Virus record (IMG/VR): IMGVR_UViG_3300028840_002691
Span: 41,095-105,094 of that record
Direction: 5' to 3' (one strand)
Origin: a virus
DNA: 64,000 bases
This document shows, piece by piece, positions 44,327-61,625 of the stretch (the stretch's first letter is position 1; every line of letters starts with the position of its first letter). The notes beneath the pieces are model-generated. The model did not search any database and was not told where the DNA came from. It saw nothing but the letters and a program-made list of their open reading frames with translations. The translations under genes were made by a program, and so were the position numbers.

Positions 44327-44413
44327 AAACCGGACACAATGAAGGCTAACACCACGGCATACAGACAAAATCTTAAGAGAGCTCCAGAGTGGTTAATGTT
44401 TCTTGTCCGGTTT
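44327..44413 (+). ncRNA. Leader inverted repeat before the ParB-like gene
   Basis: AAACCGGACA (44327-44336) and TGTCCGGTTT (44404-44413) are a perfect 10-bp inverted repeat 67 bases apart. Between them lies the start of a 50-codon ORF (44339-44491, MKANTTAYRQ) overlapping the ParB-like start in another frame. Its role may be as leader peptide or regulatory RNA. The AAAGGAGG at 44313-44320 is 18 bases from that ATG, too far for strong translation. Confidence 0.4.
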
Positions 44414-44465
44414 CATTGGCTGCCTGGGGCTTTCTTATTTTCTGAGAATGAAAGGAGAGTGGGCT

Positions 44466-45683
44466 ATGGAAAGAAGATTGGCAGTTGTTAGAAAAGGTGA
44501 AGAGGCTGTGATCCCTGTAATTGAGATTCCTAAGAAGCAAGAGTTATGGGCTGTTTCTGATCTTAGGCCAGATGAAAACCAAGCGCCAAGGAAAATGCCC
44601 CCAGAGAAGTTGAAGAGTCTTGGTGAGAGTTTGTTACAGAGACAAAAACACCCACTACAGGTTCTTCCAGATGGGATGATAGTAACAGGTGAGCGTCGTT
44701 GGAGAGCTGCCAAACTGGTCGGGATCAAAAGTTTGTGGTGTGTTGTTCTGGATGACTTACTTCAGTATGAAGGAGAGAAGCTCAAATCTGAGATTCGTTC
44801 TGAACAGGCTAGTGAGAACTGGCATCGTGGTGAAGAAGCTGGCGTTAAGTTGTCTGTTTATTTTGCTGAGATGTTCAAAGCCCAACAGCTTTACTACCGT
44901 ACCCGCACAAACGAAGAGCTGCTGGAGGAGGCTAGAGGTGCTGGTGTCGTACTTTTTTCAAAAAAAGTACGAAGGGGACAAGATGAAACTCGTTGGCTCA
45001 CCAGAATGCGGAAGGAAAATAGCTATTATAGCCTCATAGCCCACAAGTTCAGCATAATGGACAAGAGCGGGAAGCCGATGGCAACTGCTGTGAGGAAGAA
45101 CATTTTGTTCAAGGATAGAACATCTGAGAAGGTGTATTCTAAGGCTGAAGACACATCTGTATCGCAGATTGAGGGAACATTAGGAAGTGAGGATTATTCT
45201 GATTGTCAGCTGAAGCAAATTGCAAAGGTGCAGGATGAGATTTGTTCTGACAGCAAGTTTTATGGTTCTGGTATTATGGTCAGGACTGTCATGCGGGCTA
45301 TAAAGAATGATGAATCTGATGAGGTAATTGAAAAAGTAAAGAAGGAGGTACGGAAGGGCAAGTACAAGAGTTCTGATCTTAACAAGGTTGAAGATCAGGA
45401 TGCTTTGATTGCTGCTGTCAAAGAAGAGGTTGAGGGAAAGAAGAAAGAAGAAACTTTTGATGAGTATTTGAAAAAGGTTTCTAATGCTGCTGATGGGCTT
45501 ATTAACAAGTTGGGCATGCTTCTGGAACAGGTGAAGGAGAGTCCAGAGAGTGCCCAAATTATACTTGAAAACTGGGAGGTGATGGAGTCTCTGCTTTTAT
45601 TGATCTCTACGATGCGTGAGGTGTTTGCGATTTCTGCTGTCAGTCAGAGGATGAAGAAGAACAATGTGAAACTCATGACCTAA
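44466..45683 (+). CDS. ParB/Srx-like nuclease-fold protein
   Basis: This 405-residue protein starts at ATG 44466 behind AAAGGAG. PDGMIVTGERRWRAAKLVGI about residue 74 is the central ParB motif (G-E-R-R-x-R-A). The remainder is helical and charged, with a predicted coiled segment near the C-terminus (QRMKKNNVKLMT end). Phage ParB-like proteins serve as DNA-binding, nuclease or, in some modification loci, accessory enzymes. No ParA gene is adjacent, so simple partition is unlikely. Codons are more AT-rich than in upstream genes. Confidence 0.7.
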   Translation: MERRLAVVRKGEEAVIPVIEIPKKQELWAVSDLRPDENQAPRKMPPEKLKSLGESLLQRQKHPLQVLPDGMIVTGERRWRAAKLVGIKSLWCVVLDDLLQYEGEKLKSEIRSEQASENWHRGEEAGVKLSVYFAEMFKAQQLYYRTRTNEELLEEARGAGVVLFSKKVRRGQDETRWLTRMRKENSYYSLIAHKFSIMDKSGKPMATAVRKNILFKDRTSEKVYSKAEDTSVSQIEGTLGSEDYSDCQLKQIAKVQDEICSDSKFYGSGIMVRTVMRAIKNDESDEVIEKVKKEVRKGKYKSSDLNKVEDQDALIAAVKEEVEGKKKEETFDEYLKKVSNAADGLINKLGMLLEQVKESPESAQIILENWEVMESLLLLISTMREVFAISAVSQRMKKNNVKLMT

Positions 45684-52283: not shown

Positions 52284-52565
52284 ATGATTAGGACAGAAGA
52301 CCTGGCTAAGAAATTCTTTGAAGTAAGCAAGGAGTTACAGCAGCTTTTTGCTAAGAAAAACTTTGACTATGGCAATGATCAGATCAAAGCTTTTGGTGAC
52401 TTTGGTATTCTTGTTCGTTCTTATGATAAGATTCAGAGGTTGAAAAACATTTATCAAAAGAAGGAGCTATCAGTCCCTGAAGAGACGATTGACGACACGT
52501 GGAGGGATCTTGCTGTTTATGCTATTATGGCTGTCATGTATCGGAACGGGGAGTGGGAGAAGTAG
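52284..52565 (+). CDS. Nmad1-like (DUF1599) protein
   Basis: This 93-residue protein starts at ATG 52284 with GGAG five bases upstream. KKNFDYGNDQIKAFGDFGIL about residue 24, RSYDKIQRLKN about 45 and DDTWRDLAVYAIMAV near the end match the nucleotide-modification-associated domain 1 pattern (K-K-N-x-D-Y-G ... R-x-x-D-K ... D-T-x-x-D-L). Family members are found in phage loci with DNA base modification genes. The stop overlaps the asparagine-synthase-like start. Confidence 0.7.
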   Translation: MIRTEDLAKKFFEVSKELQQLFAKKNFDYGNDQIKAFGDFGILVRSYDKIQRLKNIYQKKELSVPEETIDDTWRDLAVYAIMAVMYRNGEWEK

Positions 52566-53906
52566 ATGTGCGGGTTGAACTTCTGTACGATTGATCCTGA
52601 GACTTATATCCCTTTGATGAATGAAAAGATATCTTATAGGGGTATTCGTTCTAATTGGTATGTCTATGATGATCTTGGGTTTGGTCATGTTAGACTCCCA
52701 ATACAAGGCGTCGATGAAAAATACGATCAGCCGTTTGAGTATAAGAACTGGATCATTCTTTATGTTGGAGAGATATTCAACTATAAGAAGATAGACCCGA
52801 CTGCGAATAGTGATATTGAAGTATTGGCCAAGTCTTGGGATCTGTATGGTGAAGGATGCTTTCATCTGTTTGATGGTTTTTGGTCAGTTGTAGTTTATGA
52901 TAAACAGACAGGCGAGACTCATGTCTTTACAGATTTTCTTGCTAAGAAGCCGCTTTATATCCACAAGTACACGAGTTCTGTTTCTTCTGAGATAAAGTCC
53001 CTTTGTCCTTTTAATGGGTATAAGTATTGGCAGGACGAGTACTATTTTTCTTGTGTCAATAAATGGGGCTATTGCCTTAATGAGCATACTTTTATTTCTT
53101 CTGTTCGTAAGATTCCTCCTTGTACTCATCTTGTGATAAAGAACATGAAAGTGGTTTCCGAAAAGAGATACATGGGCATTTCTCCTAGAAAGATTCACCT
53201 AAGAGAAAAGATAGAAACTGCTGTCTATAATAGATTGGTTTCTGATATTCCTATCTCACTTGTATGTTCTGGTGGGTTGGATTCGTCTATTATTTATAAA
53301 TTGGTAGAGAAGAAGACGCATGATTTTACTATCTTTCATATTGATAACAAGGAGGGTGAATATCTTAACTATCTGAAGATTCCTGGTGATATTAATGTTG
53401 TGATGCTTTCGTTGGATCAGTTTGATTTGAATGAAGTGCTTTACTATAATGAGGGACCAGTTGATCTAGGTTCTGTGTTTCCTCAATATGAAATGGCCAG
53501 TGCTATTGCTGGTACCGGGTTGAGCGTCGCTCTTTCTGGTGATGGTGCTGATGAGTTGTTTGGTGGATATACTAGGATATCTGATTATGATTCTCAGTGG
53601 TCTGATGTATTTGAGGAGTTGGTTTATTATCATTTGCCGAGACTTGATAAGTTAATGATGGCTAAGACAATCGAACTGCGCTGTCCTTATCTTTCTGAAC
53701 CTGTGATTGCTGGGGCGCTTTCACTTCCTTATAAAGACAGGATGAAAAAGAAAATCTTGAAAGAAATGTTTTCTGATATTCTTCCAAAACAGATTATTGA
53801 AAGGGACAAGGTAGCTTTGAAGAGTAAAATGGTTTTGGAAGGTGGGTTGGAATGGCGATATTATCTTGTTAACAAATTCAGAGCGGAGGTATTTAATGAA
53901 TATTGA
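52566..53906 (+). CDS. asnB: Asparagine-synthase-like amidotransferase
   Basis: This 446-residue protein has Met-Cys2-Gly at the N-terminus, the nucleophile of class II glutamine amidotransferases (after Met removal). ILYVGEIFNY is part of the glutaminase site. The synthetase domain has the PP-loop VCSGGLDSS about 234 and ALSGDGADELFGGY about 320. The chain is shorter than bacterial AsnB (about 550). It could raise the host Asn pool or, given its neighbours, amidate a modified nucleotide. Very AT-rich. Confidence 0.8.
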   Translation: MCGLNFCTIDPETYIPLMNEKISYRGIRSNWYVYDDLGFGHVRLPIQGVDEKYDQPFEYKNWIILYVGEIFNYKKIDPTANSDIEVLAKSWDLYGEGCFHLFDGFWSVVVYDKQTGETHVFTDFLAKKPLYIHKYTSSVSSEIKSLCPFNGYKYWQDEYYFSCVNKWGYCLNEHTFISSVRKIPPCTHLVIKNMKVVSEKRYMGISPRKIHLREKIETAVYNRLVSDIPISLVCSGGLDSSIIYKLVEKKTHDFTIFHIDNKEGEYLNYLKIPGDINVVMLSLDQFDLNEVLYYNEGPVDLGSVFPQYEMASAIAGTGLSVALSGDGADELFGGYTRISDYDSQWSDVFEELVYYHLPRLDKLMMAKTIELRCPYLSEPVIAGALSLPYKDRMKKKILKEMFSDILPKQIIERDKVALKSKMVLEGGLEWRYYLVNKFRAEVFNEY

Positions 53907-54318
53907 TGACGCTGGGAGTGTTGTGGTACCGGAGCATGAAGATGATATGCTTAGATTGGTTTTTGCTAGACAGAGGGAGCTGATGGAGAAGTATCATCCG
54001 ATTGAGAAAGAAAAGGGATTATTGCAGGATGAAAATATTCCTGTGAATATTGATTCTCATCTTGGACAAGCTAGGTTAAAAGACTTTGCCTGGCGTGTTA
54101 CTGAAGAGATCGGTGAGGCGATGAATTGTTTGAAAAATAAACCTTGGAAACAGACTCAGATGCAGACAGATGTCCATCATTATTTAGAAGAGATTGTTGA
54201 TGCCTTTCATTTCTTTATAGAACTTTGTATTCTTTCGGGGATGTCTGCTGAAGATCTTTTCACTTTTTACTTCAAGAAGAGTGAGGTCAATAAGTTTAGA
54301 CAGCGGTCAAACTACTGA
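53896..54318 (+). CDS. All-alpha NTP pyrophosphatase, dUTPase-like
   Basis: This 140-residue protein starts at ATG 53896 behind GGAGG, inside the end of the upstream gene. RVTEEIGEAMNCLKNKPWKQ about 64 and HYLEEIVDAFHFFIELCILS about 90 carry the E-E-x-x-E and E-x-x-x-D metal-binding pairs of dimeric dUTPase/MazG folds, and the end VNKFRQRSNY is typical of the dUTPase branch. It would hydrolyse dUTP (or a related nucleotide) to the monophosphate, keeping uracil out of DNA. Confidence 0.7.
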   Translation: MNIDDAGSVVVPEHEDDMLRLVFARQRELMEKYHPIEKEKGLLQDENIPVNIDSHLGQARLKDFAWRVTEEIGEAMNCLKNKPWKQTQMQTDVHHYLEEIVDAFHFFIELCILSGMSAEDLFTFYFKKSEVNKFRQRSNY

Positions 54319-54833
54319 TGCGATCACTGAAACTTATAGAAAGATGTGTTCATAATTGCAGGAGGTGTGGTGATACCTTTGGCAACTCTGCCTGTGGTTT
54401 TGGCAAAGATGATAAGCCTTATGTCTTTTTTATAGGGACGAATCCGTGGGTTAAAGATCATGCTTTTGAGGATGGCAAGGGAATTTCTATTTTGAAAAGA
54501 AATCTGGCTGAATGGAAGTTTGATGATTTTTACTTTTGTAATATAGTAAAATGCCAAATGCCTTGGAATGGGAACCCGAGACAAGAACAGATCGATAACT
54601 GTAGGTCCTATTTGCTTGAACAAATAGAGGTTGTTAGACCAGGAATGCTGGTGTTTTTTGGTAAACAGGTTTCTGAATCGTTTGGTCTTCGATTTCTTCC
54701 TTGGACTTTTGAGAATTTTGGTGAACGCGATGTCCTTATCGTCCCGCACTTTTCATCTATTTTATATGGTGGGACAATTGAGGATATCAAAAGATACTAT
54801 AGAAGATTGAAGGAGGATTTGGATATTGACTAA
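54318..54833 (+). CDS. Uracil-DNA glycosylase superfamily protein
   Basis: This 171-residue protein has N-terminal C10, C14, C17 and C26, likely Fe-S ligands as in family 4 UDGs. FFIGTNPW about 38 replaces the usual G-E-A/N-P-G motif, NIVKCQMPWNGNP about 73 matches the N-x-x-K-C-x-P block, and IVPHFSS near 142 stands at the H-P-S motif. A second UDG domain is fused to the polymerase at 59148. It may remove uracil or a modified base from DNA. Confidence 0.65.
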   Translation: MRSLKLIERCVHNCRRCGDTFGNSACGFGKDDKPYVFFIGTNPWVKDHAFEDGKGISILKRNLAEWKFDDFYFCNIVKCQMPWNGNPRQEQIDNCRSYLLEQIEVVRPGMLVFFGKQVSESFGLRFLPWTFENFGERDVLIVPHFSSILYGGTIEDIKRYYRRLKEDLDID

Positions 54834-56068
54834 ACCCAGGGCACTTGGTGTTACATGTGGGATTGGAAGTATGTTGATTGGTGCCAGACAAGCTGGGTTT
54901 GATATTGTTGGCAATATTGAGTGGAGAAAATACTACCATACTGGAACGTTTGAATATAATTTCCCTGGTGCTTTTATGGTAAAGGAGCTGTCTGCTCTAT
55001 CGCCAAGGATAATTCGCTCTTTAAGGGGGATTGACTTGGTGATGGGGCATCCCTGACTGTGGTAACTATAGTATTCTTTTATCGAGTGGGGGGCATAACA
55101 AAAAGGAACTGATGGAGAAGAGAAAACATCCCTCGGATATTCCTTTGTTTATCAAACTTGTTTCTATTCTTAAACCCAGATTTTTTGTTATGGATAATCT
55201 TCCAGGAGCCATCTGTGCTGTTGGGCCAGATTTTTGGTCTTCTAATCTTTCTTCTTATGATATTTTTTTTGAGTGGGTTAGCAATTATCATTATGGTAAC
55301 TTACAGATTAGGAGAAACAGGCTGTTTATTATTGGTTGTCTTAGGGGCGAAAGTTTTACTTTTGTTCCTGGGGAGAAAGAATTATTCTTGTCTATGAAAG
55401 AGATCTTATCAGACCTTCTACCAGTTTCTTCGTATGGTAGATTTCCGAATCATAGCAAGTTAGACATGAAAGAGAGAGTTGGTGTTGGAAAGAGGATGAA
55501 TTTTTCTGGTTGTTATGATTATCGTTCTTTTGTGGGTTTTGATACGCTATTGGAAAGTGGTGAATGGTCTGATGTCCGAAGATATTTTTCTGCTGTCCCA
55601 GAAGGACATGTGATGACTTATATAAATAAGGAGGGACGGGTAGCAAGAAGAGCTGGTACTAGTAAACCATATTGGAGTGGTCATTCTCATGTTATTGATG
55701 GATCAAGTCCCAGTATACATCCAAAAAAGAATCTTCCTTTTACGATAAGAGAAAGGGCTCGTATTCAGGGCTGTCCGGATGATTTTGTTTTTATCGGTGA
55801 GAAGCTTAATAGTAAGGGAGAATGGGGTTTTTATAAGAATAGTAATCTAATTAAGCAAACCGGTAAGTTTATGCCTGTCCAATTTTGCAGGTATATCTCT
55901 GAGCAGATTATGGCTTATATGAAGGGTAGAAAATTCAAGTGTTCTGGAAGGCGGTTGATAAAAGAGAATCAATCTATCAGCGAGGCTAAGAAATGGTATT
56001 GTGAAAACGTTGGTTACTCTAATCAAAAACTAGCTTGTAAGTATTGCTGGCTAGATTGTGGGAGGTGA
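54826..56068 (+). CDS. DNA cytosine-5 methyltransferase with +1 frameshift at the catalytic motif
   Basis: The first frame (54826-55056) encodes motif I (LGVTCGIGSMLIGARQAGFD) and ends at CCC-TGA. The +1 frame continues DCGNYSILLSSGG and holds motif VI (FFVMDNLPGA), motif VIII (QIRRNRLFIIG), motif IX/X (RARIQGCPDDFVFIG, PVQFCRYISEQI). Joined, the product is 413 residues, a complete C5-methyltransferase with catalytic Cys at 55058-55060. Motif IV is H-P-D-C instead of P-P-C and motif VI is D-N-L instead of E-N-V. Programmed shift, mutation or sequencing error are all possible. Confidence 0.7.
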
Positions 56069-56073
56069 GCTAA

Positions 56074-56481
56074 ATGAAAGTAGAGGTTTTGTTCAATGGT
56101 ACTAAGATTACTTATGTTAGAATTGGTGATTTCTTCTATGATCTTCTTTTCTTGCTAGATGATCTTTCACCGTTGGATGCTCTTAGGAGTAACTTTAATT
56201 CTATTTTTGATCTTTTGTCTGAGTTTGGTTCGGTTGCTAATTCTTCTTCTATTGAATCTGCTGATAAAAGATCGATTTCTTCTATGTTGCATCAGGTTAA
56301 GAATCTTCGGGATCTTTTGAAGAAGGATCATGATCGTGAGTATTTAGTTAAGTTGAAATATGATTTGGCTTTGAAGTTGAAAGGGTTAGGATATCTGCCG
56401 GGTTTTAGTACCTGGACACCTATTGAGAAAGGTGCTTGCTGGTTCAATCCAGAAAGGAGAAGAATAACGAATGAGAATTGA
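56074..56481 (+). CDS. Hypothetical helical protein
   Basis: This 135-residue protein is preceded by GGGAGGTGAGC. It starts with a short strand (MKVEVLFNGTKITYVRIGDF) then helices with many Leu/Asp/Ser, and ends KGACWFNPERRRITNEN. Position between two DNA methyltransferases suggests a role in the modification module. No family recognised. Confidence 0.55.
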   Translation: MKVEVLFNGTKITYVRIGDFFYDLLFLLDDLSPLDALRSNFNSIFDLLSEFGSVANSSSIESADKRSISSMLHQVKNLRDLLKKDHDREYLVKLKYDLALKLKGLGYLPGFSTWTPIEKGACWFNPERRRITNEN

Positions 56482-57349
56482 GGATGCTAAATTTGAAATA
56501 GTTAACAAAAAATCTGGGAAAAGGTTGCCCAGAGACTATCATTGTTCTTGTTCTTTTTGCAAGGGTGGATATTCTGGAATGTTGATAAGGAGTGATGGTA
56601 GTAAATATAGCCGTCGTGTTCGTTCTTACTATTATGATGAAGGGGAGAGAGTTCATCCAGCAAAAACTCCTCTTCATTTGGCTCGCTATTGTGTACAAAC
56701 TTATACTGAATCGGGGGATTGGGTTTTTGATCCGACTATTGGTGCGGGAACTACTGCAGTAGAAGCTTTAAATTTTGATAGGAATGTTGTTGGGATAGAA
56801 CTTTGTTATTATGATAATGTTTTATTGAATATAAGAAAAAATTGTCGTGATGGTAAAAGATATAAAATCTTTCATGGCGATGCTATCGATTGTGGTAAAT
56901 TTCTAAAGAAAGCGGGGAGAAAGTTTAGATTGATTATTAACAATCCACCTTATTCTGCTGATACTATTGTTCAATGGGGATTTACTGGTAGTGGTAAGGA
57001 GGTAAGATATGAAACAGGTGAATCTGGAAATCTTGCCTTTAAAAGAGAGAATGATGAGTATTATAAATTTATTAGGGATATCTATCAAGAAGCCTGTAAG
57101 CATTTACTTTTTGGGGGGTATTTTGTAGTTGGTGTTAAGGATATGATGAGACAGAAGAAGCCCTATTTACTTCATTTCTATCTTGGAAAAATACTGGAAG
57201 AGTTTTTATCGTTTAAAGAAATGATTCTTCTTCCTCATTATCCCCCGACGTTGTTTATGAATACTTATAGAAAAAGGTATCCAGAGGTTGAGAAGATACC
57301 TTTATATCAAACTATTTTGGTTTTTAGAAAGGAGAAGAATAGCAAATGA
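56471..57349 (+). CDS. DNA N6-adenine/N4-cytosine methyltransferase (NPPY)
   Basis: This 292-residue protein has HPAKTPLHLARYCVQTYTES about 74, motif I DPTIGAGTTAVEAL about 92, a GIEL strand after it, and NNPPYSADT about 157 as motif IV. S-adenosylmethionine binding uses motif I, and the NPPY is typical of exocyclic amino methyltransferases. An N-terminal CSCSFCKGG may bind zinc. No restriction partner is visible, so it is an orphan enzyme, likely protective or part of base modification. Confidence 0.75.
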   Translation: MRIEDAKFEIVNKKSGKRLPRDYHCSCSFCKGGYSGMLIRSDGSKYSRRVRSYYYDEGERVHPAKTPLHLARYCVQTYTESGDWVFDPTIGAGTTAVEALNFDRNVVGIELCYYDNVLLNIRKNCRDGKRYKIFHGDAIDCGKFLKKAGRKFRLIINNPPYSADTIVQWGFTGSGKEVRYETGESGNLAFKRENDEYYKFIRDIYQEACKHLLFGGYFVVGVKDMMRQKKPYLLHFYLGKILEEFLSFKEMILLPHYPPTLFMNTYRKRYPEVEKIPLYQTILVFRKEKNSK

Positions 57350-58047
57350 GGATTTATAATGATCCTGTAGAGATGGTCAAGGAGGTTGAAAGAGATCTTT
57401 TTGAAATGGGTCTTCGTGTTGATTGTCATACTGTACAGGACAAGAATGTGGAAGGCGACTCGGATTATCAGAACCTTGAACTGTTTGGTTATACTTATCG
57501 ATTGACTTCTTTTACTTCTCAAAAACTTTCTGAGATGATTGCTTATATGAAAGGGAATGAAGAGTGGGCAAAACATGAATTAGTTGACCGTTTGTCGCCG
57601 GAGTATATCAATCCAGGTAAAGCATATAAGAAGTGGGAAAAGGTTTGGAAACCATTTTTAAGAGATGGGACTTTTTCTTATACTTATAACCAAAGGATTA
57701 GGGATCAACTTCCCTGTGTAATTCAAGAACTGAAAAAGAGGCCAAATAGCAGGCAGGCAATTATTACGGTTTATGACAAACATCTTGACATGAATAATTG
57801 GGGTGGGCTTGATCGTGTATGCTGTTCTCTTTACTATCAACTGTTCTATCGATCTGGTAAATTGAATATGATCTATTCTATGAGAAGTTGTGATTTTCTT
57901 ACTCACTTTGTTCATGATGTTTATTTTGCTATTGGTATTCTTAGATATGTGGCTAAGGAGTTGGACTGGGATGTTGGTTTCTTTATTCATTTTCTTGGCT
58001 CATTGCATGCGTTTAGGAAGGATATGGAAGGGAGGGGGATATTTTAA
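57346..58047 (+). CDS. Thymidylate-synthase family enzyme, Asp at the Asn177 position
   Basis: This 233-residue protein has RQAIITVYDKHLDMNNWGG before the active site, Cys160 in RVCCSLYYQ, and 13 residues later a YSMRSCD motif (R180-D183). Eight residues after D183 lies D191 (FVHD), the position of Asn177 in E. coli ThyA with the same spacing. Asp here is the known switch to dCMP in T4 dCMP hydroxymethylase. His in LGSLHAF matches His207, with Phe for Tyr209. So either dTMP synthesis or hydroxymethylation of dCMP. Confidence 0.75.
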   Translation: MRIYNDPVEMVKEVERDLFEMGLRVDCHTVQDKNVEGDSDYQNLELFGYTYRLTSFTSQKLSEMIAYMKGNEEWAKHELVDRLSPEYINPGKAYKKWEKVWKPFLRDGTFSYTYNQRIRDQLPCVIQELKKRPNSRQAIITVYDKHLDMNNWGGLDRVCCSLYYQLFYRSGKLNMIYSMRSCDFLTHFVHDVYFAIGILRYVAKELDWDVGFFIHFLGSLHAFRKDMEGRGIF

Positions 58048-58072
58048 TCTTATATCTAATTATCCAAAATAG

Positions 58073-58717
58073 ATGAAGAGGAGGCGAGATTTTATGGGAA
58101 ATAGAGAACATTGTCGGTTTGAATTTATCTCTAAAAGTGAGGAGAGAAAGGGGAATAAGAGTAAAAATAAACTGTGGGGTTTTATTTATGCTGTTTGTAT
58201 TTGTAATAAGGGTAGTCGGGTTTTGGAAATTAAGATCGGTAGGACGATTAAGGAGTTGTATCATTATATCTCTTCTAACTATGGAGGTTCTGTTTCTTTA
58301 ATCTATTATCTAATGATTCCTGTTGGTAATGTTGAGATGTGTGAGAAGTGGATAATAAATAGTGAATATATGAAGGAATATCCTGGTTCTACTAATGAAC
58401 GTTTTAATTTATCTGTTATGTGTATTTTACCCCAGATATTTTCTCAGGCTTTTACTTTATTTGGTTGTACAAATGGGATTGACAGAAGTTCTTATTCTGG
58501 GGATCGTTGGGGAAAACAGGGGTTACCGACTCATTCTGAGATTGTGAGTTATATCGTATCTAAGACGGGGGAGTGGCTTACTATTAAGGGTGTTTGTTCT
58601 TTTTTTGGTATTATTAGAAAGAAGAATAAAGATCATGCGTCTAGATATAATACCGTTTCTAGACGTCTTTTGGATATTTGTGGTAAAAACGTTGATGGTA
58701 AATATCTAGTTCCTTAG
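58073..58717 (+). CDS. GIY-YIG/T5orf172-like endonuclease with wHTH (putative)
   Basis: This 214-residue protein contains WGFIYAVCI and IKIGRTIKELYHYI, the Y-x-x ... K-I-G-x-T pattern of the MUG113/T5orf172 group of the GIY-YIG fold, with a Glu in NERFNLS. The C-terminal part (EIVSYIVSKTGEWLTIKGVC) looks like a winged helix. It interrupts the otherwise coupled nucleotide genes, as a mobile endonuclease would. ATG at 58073, with an alternative further in. Confidence 0.5.
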   Translation: MKRRRDFMGNREHCRFEFISKSEERKGNKSKNKLWGFIYAVCICNKGSRVLEIKIGRTIKELYHYISSNYGGSVSLIYYLMIPVGNVEMCEKWIINSEYMKEYPGSTNERFNLSVMCILPQIFSQAFTLFGCTNGIDRSSYSGDRWGKQGLPTHSEIVSYIVSKTGEWLTIKGVCSFFGIIRKKNKDHASRYNTVSRRLLDICGKNVDGKYLVP

Positions 58718-58720
58718 AAG

Positions 58721-59167
58721 ATGATAAATAGAGTATCTCTCGATAAAATCTTTATGGAGACAGCAAAACTATTTGCTGAAAGATCTACGTGCCTTCGGCC
58801 TAAAGAGATGAAGGGTAAGGTCGGTGCCGTAATCGTTCAGGATAATAGAATTGTCTCTACCGGATATACTGGTTCTGCTTCTGGTGATTCCCATTGTATT
58901 GATGTTGGTTGTGAGATTGATTCTAATACCGGAGGTTGTATAAGAACATTGCATTCAGAGACCAATGCTATAGCTTTTGCTGCTAGGAGTGGTATCAAGT
59001 TAGAGAATGCTGAGATGTTTGTTACTTTAAGTCCGTGTCTGGACTGTGCTAAGTTACTCGTTGCTTGTGGATTCAAAAGGGTTGTTTACTTGATAGAGTA
59101 CAGGGATGAAAGAGGAATCAAATATCTGAAAGATCATGGTGTGATTTGTGAGCGATATAGAGACTGA
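58721..59167 (+). CDS. dCMP deaminase
   Basis: This 148-residue protein has LHSETNAIAFAA about residue 77, with the zinc-binding His and catalytic Glu, and LSPCLDCAKLL about 104, with the P-C-x-x-C zinc ligands. AVIVQDNRIVSTGYTGSASG precedes. It converts dCMP to dUMP, feeding thymidylate synthesis. The last 20 bases overlap the polymerase gene. Confidence 0.85.
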   Translation: MINRVSLDKIFMETAKLFAERSTCLRPKEMKGKVGAVIVQDNRIVSTGYTGSASGDSHCIDVGCEIDSNTGGCIRTLHSETNAIAFAARSGIKLENAEMFVTLSPCLDCAKLLVACGFKRVVYLIEYRDERGIKYLKDHGVICERYRD

Positions 59168-61625
59168 TAAGAATTGTGGTAAATGCGGACAGTATAGAAA
59201 GGTAAGAAGTCCTAATATCCCTTGTGATGGTTATGGGAAGAAAGGTGTTCTTGCTGTTGGACAAAGTCCCGGAGTTGTTGAAGATAGAAAAGGAGAAAAT
59301 TTTGTTGGCAGCAGTGGCGATCTTGTTACTGATGTCATGCGTACTTATGGATTGGAGTTTAAACGAGATTTCTATGTTGCCAATGCTTTTAGGTGTAAGC
59401 CTTCTGGTAAGAACTTTTTGATGTATCAGAAGTGCTGTCACCATAGACTTGTTGGTGATATTAAAAGATTGAAACCGTGGTTGATTGTTGCTTTTGGAAA
59501 GGAGGCTATACAATCTGTCTTTGGGATCTTTCATCCGATTACTACTAAACAGTTTCAAGATCTTTTGATTCCACGTGTTGAGTATGGTTGCTGGGTATAT
59601 TGTACTTATCATCCTGCTTGGGTGATCAGGAATGAAAGGGACAACAAAGATCTTTTCATTGATGCTGTTGGCCGTATAGCAGAGTTGATTGAGGATTCGG
59701 AGGAAGAGGGGCTTGAGTTCGAGTGGAGGCATAGGACTGATTGGCAGCTTGATAATGTGGAGACTGTTACTGATTTTGACAAAGCCGTTGAATATCTGAG
59801 ATCGTTAAGGCAGGTTGAGAAGTTTGCTTTTGACTGGGAGAACTATCCATTAAGGCCTTTTTCAAATGACTCCAGAGTGTTATGTGTTGGTCTTGCTGTT
59901 GATGGTGATCATGGTAAGTGTATCCCACTGGATAAGATCCCTGTACCTAAGAGGGAAGTTTATTGGAGCCCACGGCAAAGAAGGATAATTGGACAAGAAC
60001 TGAAGGAGACTTTACAGACAGAAGGACCATTAAAGATAGCTCATAATATACAGCATGAAATGTTGTGGACAAAGTTCATCGGAGCTGAATTGGCGAGACC
60101 GTGGACTTGTACTATGGTCCGGCAGCATTTAAGATGGGAAAAGTCCGGTGCTGGAAAGAATGGTTGGTACGGGCCGAAGTCGTTAAAGTTCCAGATGTTT
60201 GCTAGGCGTGGTTTGTGGCCTTATGATGAACATTTGAAACCTCCCAATATGAACTATGGGCTACTTAATGACAAGGATTTGTTTGACTATAATGCTTGTG
60301 ATGCTAAGTTCACTTACTGGCTTTATGATGAACAAGAACGAGAGAATTATCGTGGTATCGGCGTTGCTGAGAGAATACACATTGAATACGGCTGTAAAGC
60401 CATGGCCGAGATGACTTGGAATGGCGTCGAAGTTGATAAGAAAGTTGTTTCTTCTTTGTCTGGCGAATGGCAGGATCAGTTAAAAGAAGTTAAGAGTGAA
60501 CTGATCAATTGTTCTTATGGGAGGAAATGGAAGAAGAAATATAAAACAGAGATTGATCTGAATAGTGGCAAACAGGTTGGTGAAATGCTTTTTGAGATAC
60601 AGAAGCTTCCTGGAGGTAAGAAAACGCCGAAGAGTGGACAATGGAAAACTACTGAGGATATCATTCAAGATCTCATTAAGAAAGGATATGAATGGCCTAA
60701 GAACTGGTTGAGATATAAGAAACTTGAAAAGGCTGTCGGTACTTTTCTTAAAGGATATCTTGAAGATCAACTTCATGATGATGGTAAACTTCATCCTTCG
60801 TTTGGTCTTGGAGTTGCTGAGACATATCGGGGTCAATCTGATAGTCCTAATATGCAGAATTTCCCAAATAGGGAAGCACTGGTTGGAAGGGAGATCAGGA
60901 AGGCTATCTATGCTCCTAGAGGGTGGGAGATTGGCGAGTTTGATTATAGTCAACATGAGGTTCGTGTGCTTGCAATGTTATCTAAGGATAAAGTTCTTAT
61001 TGATAATATTGTAAGTGGGCATGATTTTCATGAGGACTATGCTGCCAAGATAATGGAGAAACCGGCTAGTAAGTTAACTACGAGAGAAAGGGATGAAGGG
61101 GGTAAAAGGATTTTTGTTTTTCCTATTTTCTATGGTTCTGGTTGGAGGAGTATCTATGAGGACTTGGTTGCTAACGGTTTTAAAGTAAGGGAAAAAAATG
61201 TAAAGCATGTTTACTATGCTTTTAAAGAGAAGTATTCGGGGGTGACAGCATTTCAAAAGAAGCTTGCTGAGTTCTTTAGAGATAATGCTTATGTTGAAAC
61301 ACCTTTGGGATATAGACGGAGGGAACCAATGACTTATACGGCTTTGGTTAATTTTCCCGTCCAGAATGTTGCCTTTGCTTTACTTCTTTATGCTGCTGCC
61401 AAGACGATGGATGCTATTAAGGATCAGGAAATGAAGGCAAAGGGGATATTTCAAATACATGATTCGGCTGGATTTATTTATCCTAAAAATGAAAGACGGC
61501 AGCTTTTTGATCTTGTTCTTGATAATTTTTTGGAGTTCCCCTGGAAGTTTACGGAAACTGTACCACTTAAGGTCGGTGCTAAAGTTGGGAAGAATTGGCT
61601 CGAGATGAGGAAAATAAATTTATGA
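59148..61625 (+). CDS. polA: DNA polymerase I-type with N-terminal UDG domain
   Basis: This 825-residue protein has a UDG-like domain at residues 1-190 with NCGKCG, AVGQSPG, NAFRCKPSGKN and TYHPAW. A 3'-5' exonuclease starts with FAFDWENY about 225. The polymerase core has motif A EFDYSQHEVR about 597, motif B KRIFVFPIFYGSG about 653 and motif C QIHDSAG about 768. It starts at GTG 59148 within the deaminase gene. Family A replicative polymerase of the phage; fusion suggests that uracil or a modified base is checked during synthesis. AT-rich. Confidence 0.85.
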   Translation: MSDIETDKNCGKCGQYRKVRSPNIPCDGYGKKGVLAVGQSPGVVEDRKGENFVGSSGDLVTDVMRTYGLEFKRDFYVANAFRCKPSGKNFLMYQKCCHHRLVGDIKRLKPWLIVAFGKEAIQSVFGIFHPITTKQFQDLLIPRVEYGCWVYCTYHPAWVIRNERDNKDLFIDAVGRIAELIEDSEEEGLEFEWRHRTDWQLDNVETVTDFDKAVEYLRSLRQVEKFAFDWENYPLRPFSNDSRVLCVGLAVDGDHGKCIPLDKIPVPKREVYWSPRQRRIIGQELKETLQTEGPLKIAHNIQHEMLWTKFIGAELARPWTCTMVRQHLRWEKSGAGKNGWYGPKSLKFQMFARRGLWPYDEHLKPPNMNYGLLNDKDLFDYNACDAKFTYWLYDEQERENYRGIGVAERIHIEYGCKAMAEMTWNGVEVDKKVVSSLSGEWQDQLKEVKSELINCSYGRKWKKKYKTEIDLNSGKQVGEMLFEIQKLPGGKKTPKSGQWKTTEDIIQDLIKKGYEWPKNWLRYKKLEKAVGTFLKGYLEDQLHDDGKLHPSFGLGVAETYRGQSDSPNMQNFPNREALVGREIRKAIYAPRGWEIGEFDYSQHEVRVLAMLSKDKVLIDNIVSGHDFHEDYAAKIMEKPASKLTTRERDEGGKRIFVFPIFYGSGWRSIYEDLVANGFKVREKNVKHVYYAFKEKYSGVTAFQKKLAEFFRDNAYVETPLGYRRREPMTYTALVNFPVQNVAFALLLYAAAKTMDAIKDQEMKAKGIFQIHDSAGFIYPKNERRQLFDLVLDNFLEFPWKFTETVPLKVGAKVGKNWLEMRKINL

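Follow-up and report, generated by a model that had tools for sequence, protein, structure and literature searches.

Modules in which a TS-type enzyme acts on cytosine together with a tailoring enzyme have been described previously. Among the closest to our locus are the 5-hydroxymethylcytosine (5hmC) carbamoyltransferase modules found by MetaGPA (eLife 2021, PMC8670742). As in our locus, these modules bring together in one neighbourhood a TS-like gene with Asp177 and a changed residue 147, a dCMP deaminase and a pyrophosphohydrolase. However, the partner in those modules is a carbamoyltransferase, while here it is an AsnB-like ligase. A search for carbamoyltransferases (Carbam_trans_N, PF02543) found none in the record that contains our locus, and where related contigs do have matches (4 of 14), these are distant from the TS gene. 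The dCMP hydroxymethylase of phage T4 (gp42) also shares with our enzyme the TS fold, the catalytic cysteine and an aspartate for dCMP. In this case, sequence similarity is low, and the TS-like gene is here joined by an AsnB gene, not a glucosyltransferase.

A different precedent is the CmoA/CmoX/CmoY system, which is responsible for 5-carboxymethylcytosine (PMC12783734). The likenesses are an AsnB-related ATP-dependent ligase (CmoY), itself a precedent for enzymes of this type in the modification of phage bases, and a homologue of C5-methyltransferases whose Cx-SAM site has a basic residue. However, for our locus CmoA was not found in the record or in 14 related contigs, motif IV of the methyltransferase homologue is not SPPC, and the constant partner in most relatives is the TS-like gene. 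In the literature on AsnB with TS or Nmad1 in phages, only this paper proved relevant. An earlier note on this DNA had called the combination with AsnB and Asp-type TS an unrecognised pathway. This view needs qualification, given that CmoY is already an AsnB-type ligase that works on modified cytosine; the best-supported reading is a cytosine hypermodification module of the TS-plus-tailoring type, in which the AsnB-like partner would be new. Finally, Escherichia coli AsnB and human ASNS resemble our protein in fold and ATP-site motifs, but its family mostly lacks Arg49 and Asn74, has His in place of Asp384 and has a shorter C-terminus.

The gene block

The window, i.e., the whole stretch of 64,000 nucleotides that was analyzed, makes up the final 64 kb of a viral record of 105,094 bases. 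It encodes a terminase large subunit, portal, head-morphogenesis protein, tape measure, DnaB-like helicase, primase and family-A polymerase, and this set of genes indicates a tailed phage. A megablast search of cultured phages, using a 14-kb query that covers the module, found no close DNA relative.

The gene block at 52284-61625 is real, with all genes on one strand (+). It is AT-rich, as had been claimed, with a GC content of 0.355-0.418 versus 0.487-0.527 in the adjoining 2-kb bins on both sides. Overlapping junctions were also borne out: 6 of 10 overlap by 1-20 bases, and the other four are gaps of 0, 3, 5 and 25 bases. The list of ten genes in the earlier note is correct as far as it goes, but there are 11, since an ORF at 58073-58717 was left out. 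Pfam searches agree with its domain calls at their places (DUF1599/Nmad1, Asn_synthase plus GATase, dUTPase_2, UDG, DNA_methylase, N6_N4_Mtase, Thymidylat_synt and dCMP deaminase).

The first gene (52284..52565, +) encodes a small helical protein of the Nmad1/DUF1599 type (PF07659, E 1.1e-6), whose AlphaFold model is all-helical (pLDDT 84). Comparing this model to known folds gave only matches with Z of about 6-8, and the match to DCTPP1 (Z 6.1) does not exceed the background for helical models. A search for HMUDK_hel had no match anywhere, even in the controls, and is therefore uninformative. Next come the AsnB-like ligase (52566..53906, +), with class-II GATase and ATP-pyrophosphatase parts (PF00733 8.7e-34, PF13522 9.7e-17), a dUTPase_2 or all-alpha NTP pyrophosphatase (53896..54318, +, with an inferred start in an ORF that opens at 53842; PF08761 1.6e-10, phrog_12184) and a UDG-superfamily protein (54318..54833, +; PF03167 1.1e-13).

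The C5-cytosine-methyltransferase family gene (54826..56068, +; PF00145 4.3e-10 on the 3' part) was correctly assigned to its family, but it is not a single intact gene. It consists of two frames (54826-55056 and 55055-56068) owing to one extra base, with CCC-TGA at 55051-55056. We set aside a programmed +1 frameshift at this motif, because the alignment shows that the genes in four related contigs (L014, L015, L016 and L053) have the same motif and are unbroken there; an indel, whether real or due to assembly, is thus more likely. The window's protein has GHP-DCG as its motif IV and Lys at the position of HhaI Asn304.

The following genes encode an unknown protein of 135 amino acids (56074..56481, +; no Pfam match and one relative, L016:11791-12165), an N6/N4 DNA-methyltransferase family protein with an NPPY motif (56471..57349, +; PF01555 1.6e-18) and the TS-like enzyme (57346..58047, +; PF00303 2e-14). 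The previously omitted ORF, between the TS and deaminase genes (58073..58717, +), encodes 214 amino acids with no Pfam or PHROG match, and a profile search found no relatives among the loci covered. The block ends with a dCMP deaminase (58721..59167, +; PF00383 1.2e-22) and a UDG-like N-terminal part fused to a family-A DNA polymerase (59148..61625, +). The polymerase call in this fusion is upheld by PHROGs (phrog_17 9.1e-84) and by tblastn to phage PolA, and the UDG-like call by sequence inspection and a match to the UDG profile. Outside the block, a ParB-like nuclease gene, of a type that is often near CmoX genes, lies at 44403-45683.

Linkage across viral contigs

AsnB and TS contigs were gathered by alignment-based scans of viral contigs, followed by a profile search of their ORFs. 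Scanning the viral contigs with a single TS sequence gave no matches, whereas alignment scans did. Records labelled Listeria phage or faecal phage (L010-L013) also had AsnB matches but resemble bacterial contigs, and these matches were left out. The resulting AsnB family set comprises 87 viral contigs, including the window.

A TS-like gene is present in 79 of these 87 contigs, and the remaining eight end at most 124 bases upstream of AsnB; thus, all 79 contigs with enough upstream sequence have it. Similarly, a dCMP deaminase is found in 83 contigs and the other four end within 123 bases downstream, so that it is present in 83 of 83 loci with enough downstream sequence. The median gap between TS and AsnB is 4 bases. 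Most often TS comes first, then AsnB and then the deaminase, and in many contigs UvsX and DnaB/gp41-type genes come next. These counts are not independent, because the AsnB contigs are, for the most part, apparently T4-like and mutually related, forming 29 groups at 80% identity. At less than 80% identity, the TS gene accompanies 28 of 29 AsnB sequences, and the one other is on a truncated contig. Judged from these neighbourhoods, the TS-AsnB-deaminase core is not due to chance, and the AsnB-like partner appears to be common to many uncultured, mostly T4-like phages.

The earlier note had proposed a search for co-occurrence of Nmad1, AsnB and TS(Asp). The result is strongly positive for TS, AsnB and deaminase, but holds only partly for Nmad1, which is present in the window but less constant as a partner than was implied: of the 87 AsnB loci, counting the window, 46 have a small Nmad1-related protein upstream of TS, as do 23 of the 40 with at least 6 kb of upstream sequence. 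Members of the N6/N4-methyltransferase family occur in 36 AsnB loci versus 0 TS-only loci, a count whose meaning is limited by the kinship of the contigs. The window's nearest group consists of L014, L015 and L016, whose AsnB proteins are 45-55% identical to its own and which have in common with it the dUTPase_2, C5, TS, deaminase and polymerase genes. Four AsnB-bearing contigs (L043, L064, L057 and L091, i.e., G002, G003, G004 and G011) have Carbam_trans_N genes elsewhere.

The TS-like enzyme

The TS-like enzyme in the window has Cys160, Ser161 and Asp191 at positions 146, 147 and 177 of EcTS, which confirms that it is of the Asp type. All 79 AsnB-linked copies have Cys146, Ser or Thr in place of His147, and Asp in place of Asn177; the catalytic cysteine is also kept in all 62 of the other TS copies, which have no AsnB linkage. 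According to MetaGPA, positions 147 and 177 best separate the TS enzymes of phages with cytosine-modified DNA from those of phages with unmodified DNA (PMC8670742). The catalytic Cys, Asp177 and Ser/Thr147 together are the published signature of dCMP-modifying enzymes, and on this signature the enzyme is predicted to be a dCMP C5-hydroxymethylase.

In TS(Asp) phages without AsnB, a protein of roughly 260-350 amino acids is often beside TS (phrog_13667 in actinophages), e.g., L240 6033-6926 (Muddy gp47), L006 7591-9427 and L007 10000-11764. It may be a degenerate TS paralogue, although the profile comparison (P 42%, E 2.6e-4) is only suggestive.

The AsnB-like protein

The AlphaFold model of the AsnB-like protein (pLDDT 91) aligns to E. 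coli AsnB (EcAsnB, 1ct9) with a Z of 39.7 over 409 residues, at 24% identity. Across the family, Cys1 and the SGGxDS ATP loop are invariant, and the equivalent of Lys449 is kept in 84 of 84 members. However, Val takes the place of Asn74 in 79 of 84 members (Val67 in the window) and His that of Asp384 in all 84; Arg49, which the window keeps, has given way to Ser, Ala or His in 77 of 84. Asn74 and Arg49 are kept by 80 bacterial relatives. The corresponding residues of EcAsnB are glutamine-binding or belong to the synthetase site (PMC11296641). Given the frequent loss of Arg49 and Asn74, and the His in place of Asp384, the protein is probably not an asparagine synthetase, and we infer that it uses other acyl or amine substrates than that enzyme does. 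The amination or amidation of a base precursor, which the earlier note suggested, is conjectural, and the glutamine site is altered.

Searches of the cultured-phage collection found no member of this family; matches there, at about 22-29% identity, belong to other AsnB lineages. The profile matches listed for bacterial genomes were all to ordinary relatives of AsnB, with identities of about 24-33%. In Achromobacter phage Motura, annotation alone places an AsnB-like gene (L281 18037-19317) inside a 7-deazaguanine cluster (QueC/TGT/QueE). It is of a different lineage that keeps Asn74 and Arg49, and might by analogy be a further precedent for such enzymes in the modification of phage bases.

Proposed pathway and alternatives

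A role in base modification, as the earlier note proposed, is the best reading of the block, and the TS-AsnB-deaminase linkage supports it. We give about an even chance to the hypothesis that the module conducts cytosine hypermodification at the nucleotide level, by C5-hydroxymethylation and then tailoring by the divergent AsnB-like ligase. In this pathway, pyrophosphatases (dUTPase_2 and perhaps Nmad1) would break dCTP down to dCMP, and the Asp177 TS-like enzyme would put a one-carbon unit on C5 of dCMP, with 5-hydroxymethyl-dCMP as the most likely product. The AsnB-like protein would act as an ATP-dependent ligase that adenylates an acyl group and has a modified amine-donor site, and would add or complete a second group on the cytosine, either in the nucleotide or in DNA. 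The family-A polymerase would incorporate the modified dCTP, while the deaminase, dUTPase and UDG-like proteins would manage the uracil/thymine part of the pool. The UDGs and dUTPase may serve ordinary uracil control and not the modification itself. The proposed route leaves the ligase's acyl substrate unexplained, since a 5-hydroxymethyl group gives no carboxylate.

A carboxylate would be furnished if the C5 homologue acted like CmoX, using carboxy-SAM from a host CmoA to form 5-carboxymethylcytosine in DNA, which the AsnB-like enzyme would then amidate. We consider this unlikely. The HhaI Asn304 site governs Cx-SAM use, as with Arg350 of CmoX and the engineered M.MpeI N374K (PMC12783734). 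This position is Lys or Arg in 12 of 12 C5 homologues, in addition to the window's Lys, versus 19 Asn and 2 Lys in the 21 control methyltransferases scored (Fisher p about 1e-7), and there is the ParB-like gene at 44403. The basic residue keeps a CmoX-like route alive for the window's group, though motif IV is there GHP-D/E-CG, not the SPPC that defines CmoX, and the window's own C5 gene is frame-interrupted. CmoA (TIGR00740) had no match in the record or in 14 related contigs, although these may be fragments and a host CmoA can substitute. Moreover, 12 contigs outside the window's group have AsnB and TS but no C5-methyltransferase. These two absences argue against the CmoX/CmoY route as a general explanation, and as such we rejected it.

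The remaining alternatives concern the nucleotide pool or translation. Asn177-to-Asp mutants of TS make 5-methyl-dCMP (published work cited in PMC8670742), so the TS-like enzyme and the always adjoining deaminase could together yield dTMP, with AsnB in an auxiliary role unrelated to DNA modification. The record has no ThyX, so the window's TS could still serve thymidylate supply; however, 9 of 14 related contigs that bear the TS-like gene also have ThyX and therefore do not require TS for dTMP. AsnB is moreover strictly linked to TS, and we regard this explanation as quite improbable. Slightly more doubtful still is an amination in which the AsnB-like enzyme would convert 5-substituted dUMP to 5-substituted dCMP by activating a ring carbonyl, in the manner of GMP synthetase. 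Its ATP-pyrophosphatase fold is common to GMP synthase (2dpl, Z 10.5), its substrate-side residues are unlike those of AsnB, and its gene sits between TS and the dCMP deaminase. Yet the closest structures are carboxylate-activating enzymes, and a dU intermediate is not needed because the TS has the dCMP-type Asp. Although EcAsnB is the nearest solved structure, a true asparagine synthetase that serves phage translation is hardly credible in view of the mostly or always changed equivalents of Arg49, Asn74 and Asp384 (with Cys1 kept) and the invariant linkage to pyrimidine genes.

Implications

The window phage's genes probably build an altered C, and the AsnB-like enzyme may be making a hitherto unmeasured DNA base. 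Tentatively, and with somewhat less than an even chance of being right, we propose a cytosine that has not yet been described, in which a TS-type C5 handle on dCMP carries a second group attached by a repurposed AsnB-family ligase, and which would be widespread in uncultured, mostly T4-like phages. If this is true, AsnB-like ligases would be a further kind of partner for TS-made hydroxymethylcytosine, after glucosyltransferases and carbamoyltransferases. It would also supply a defined gene cassette, testable in laboratory E. coli, and would suggest that many uncultured phages contain a DNA base that has probably not been measured.
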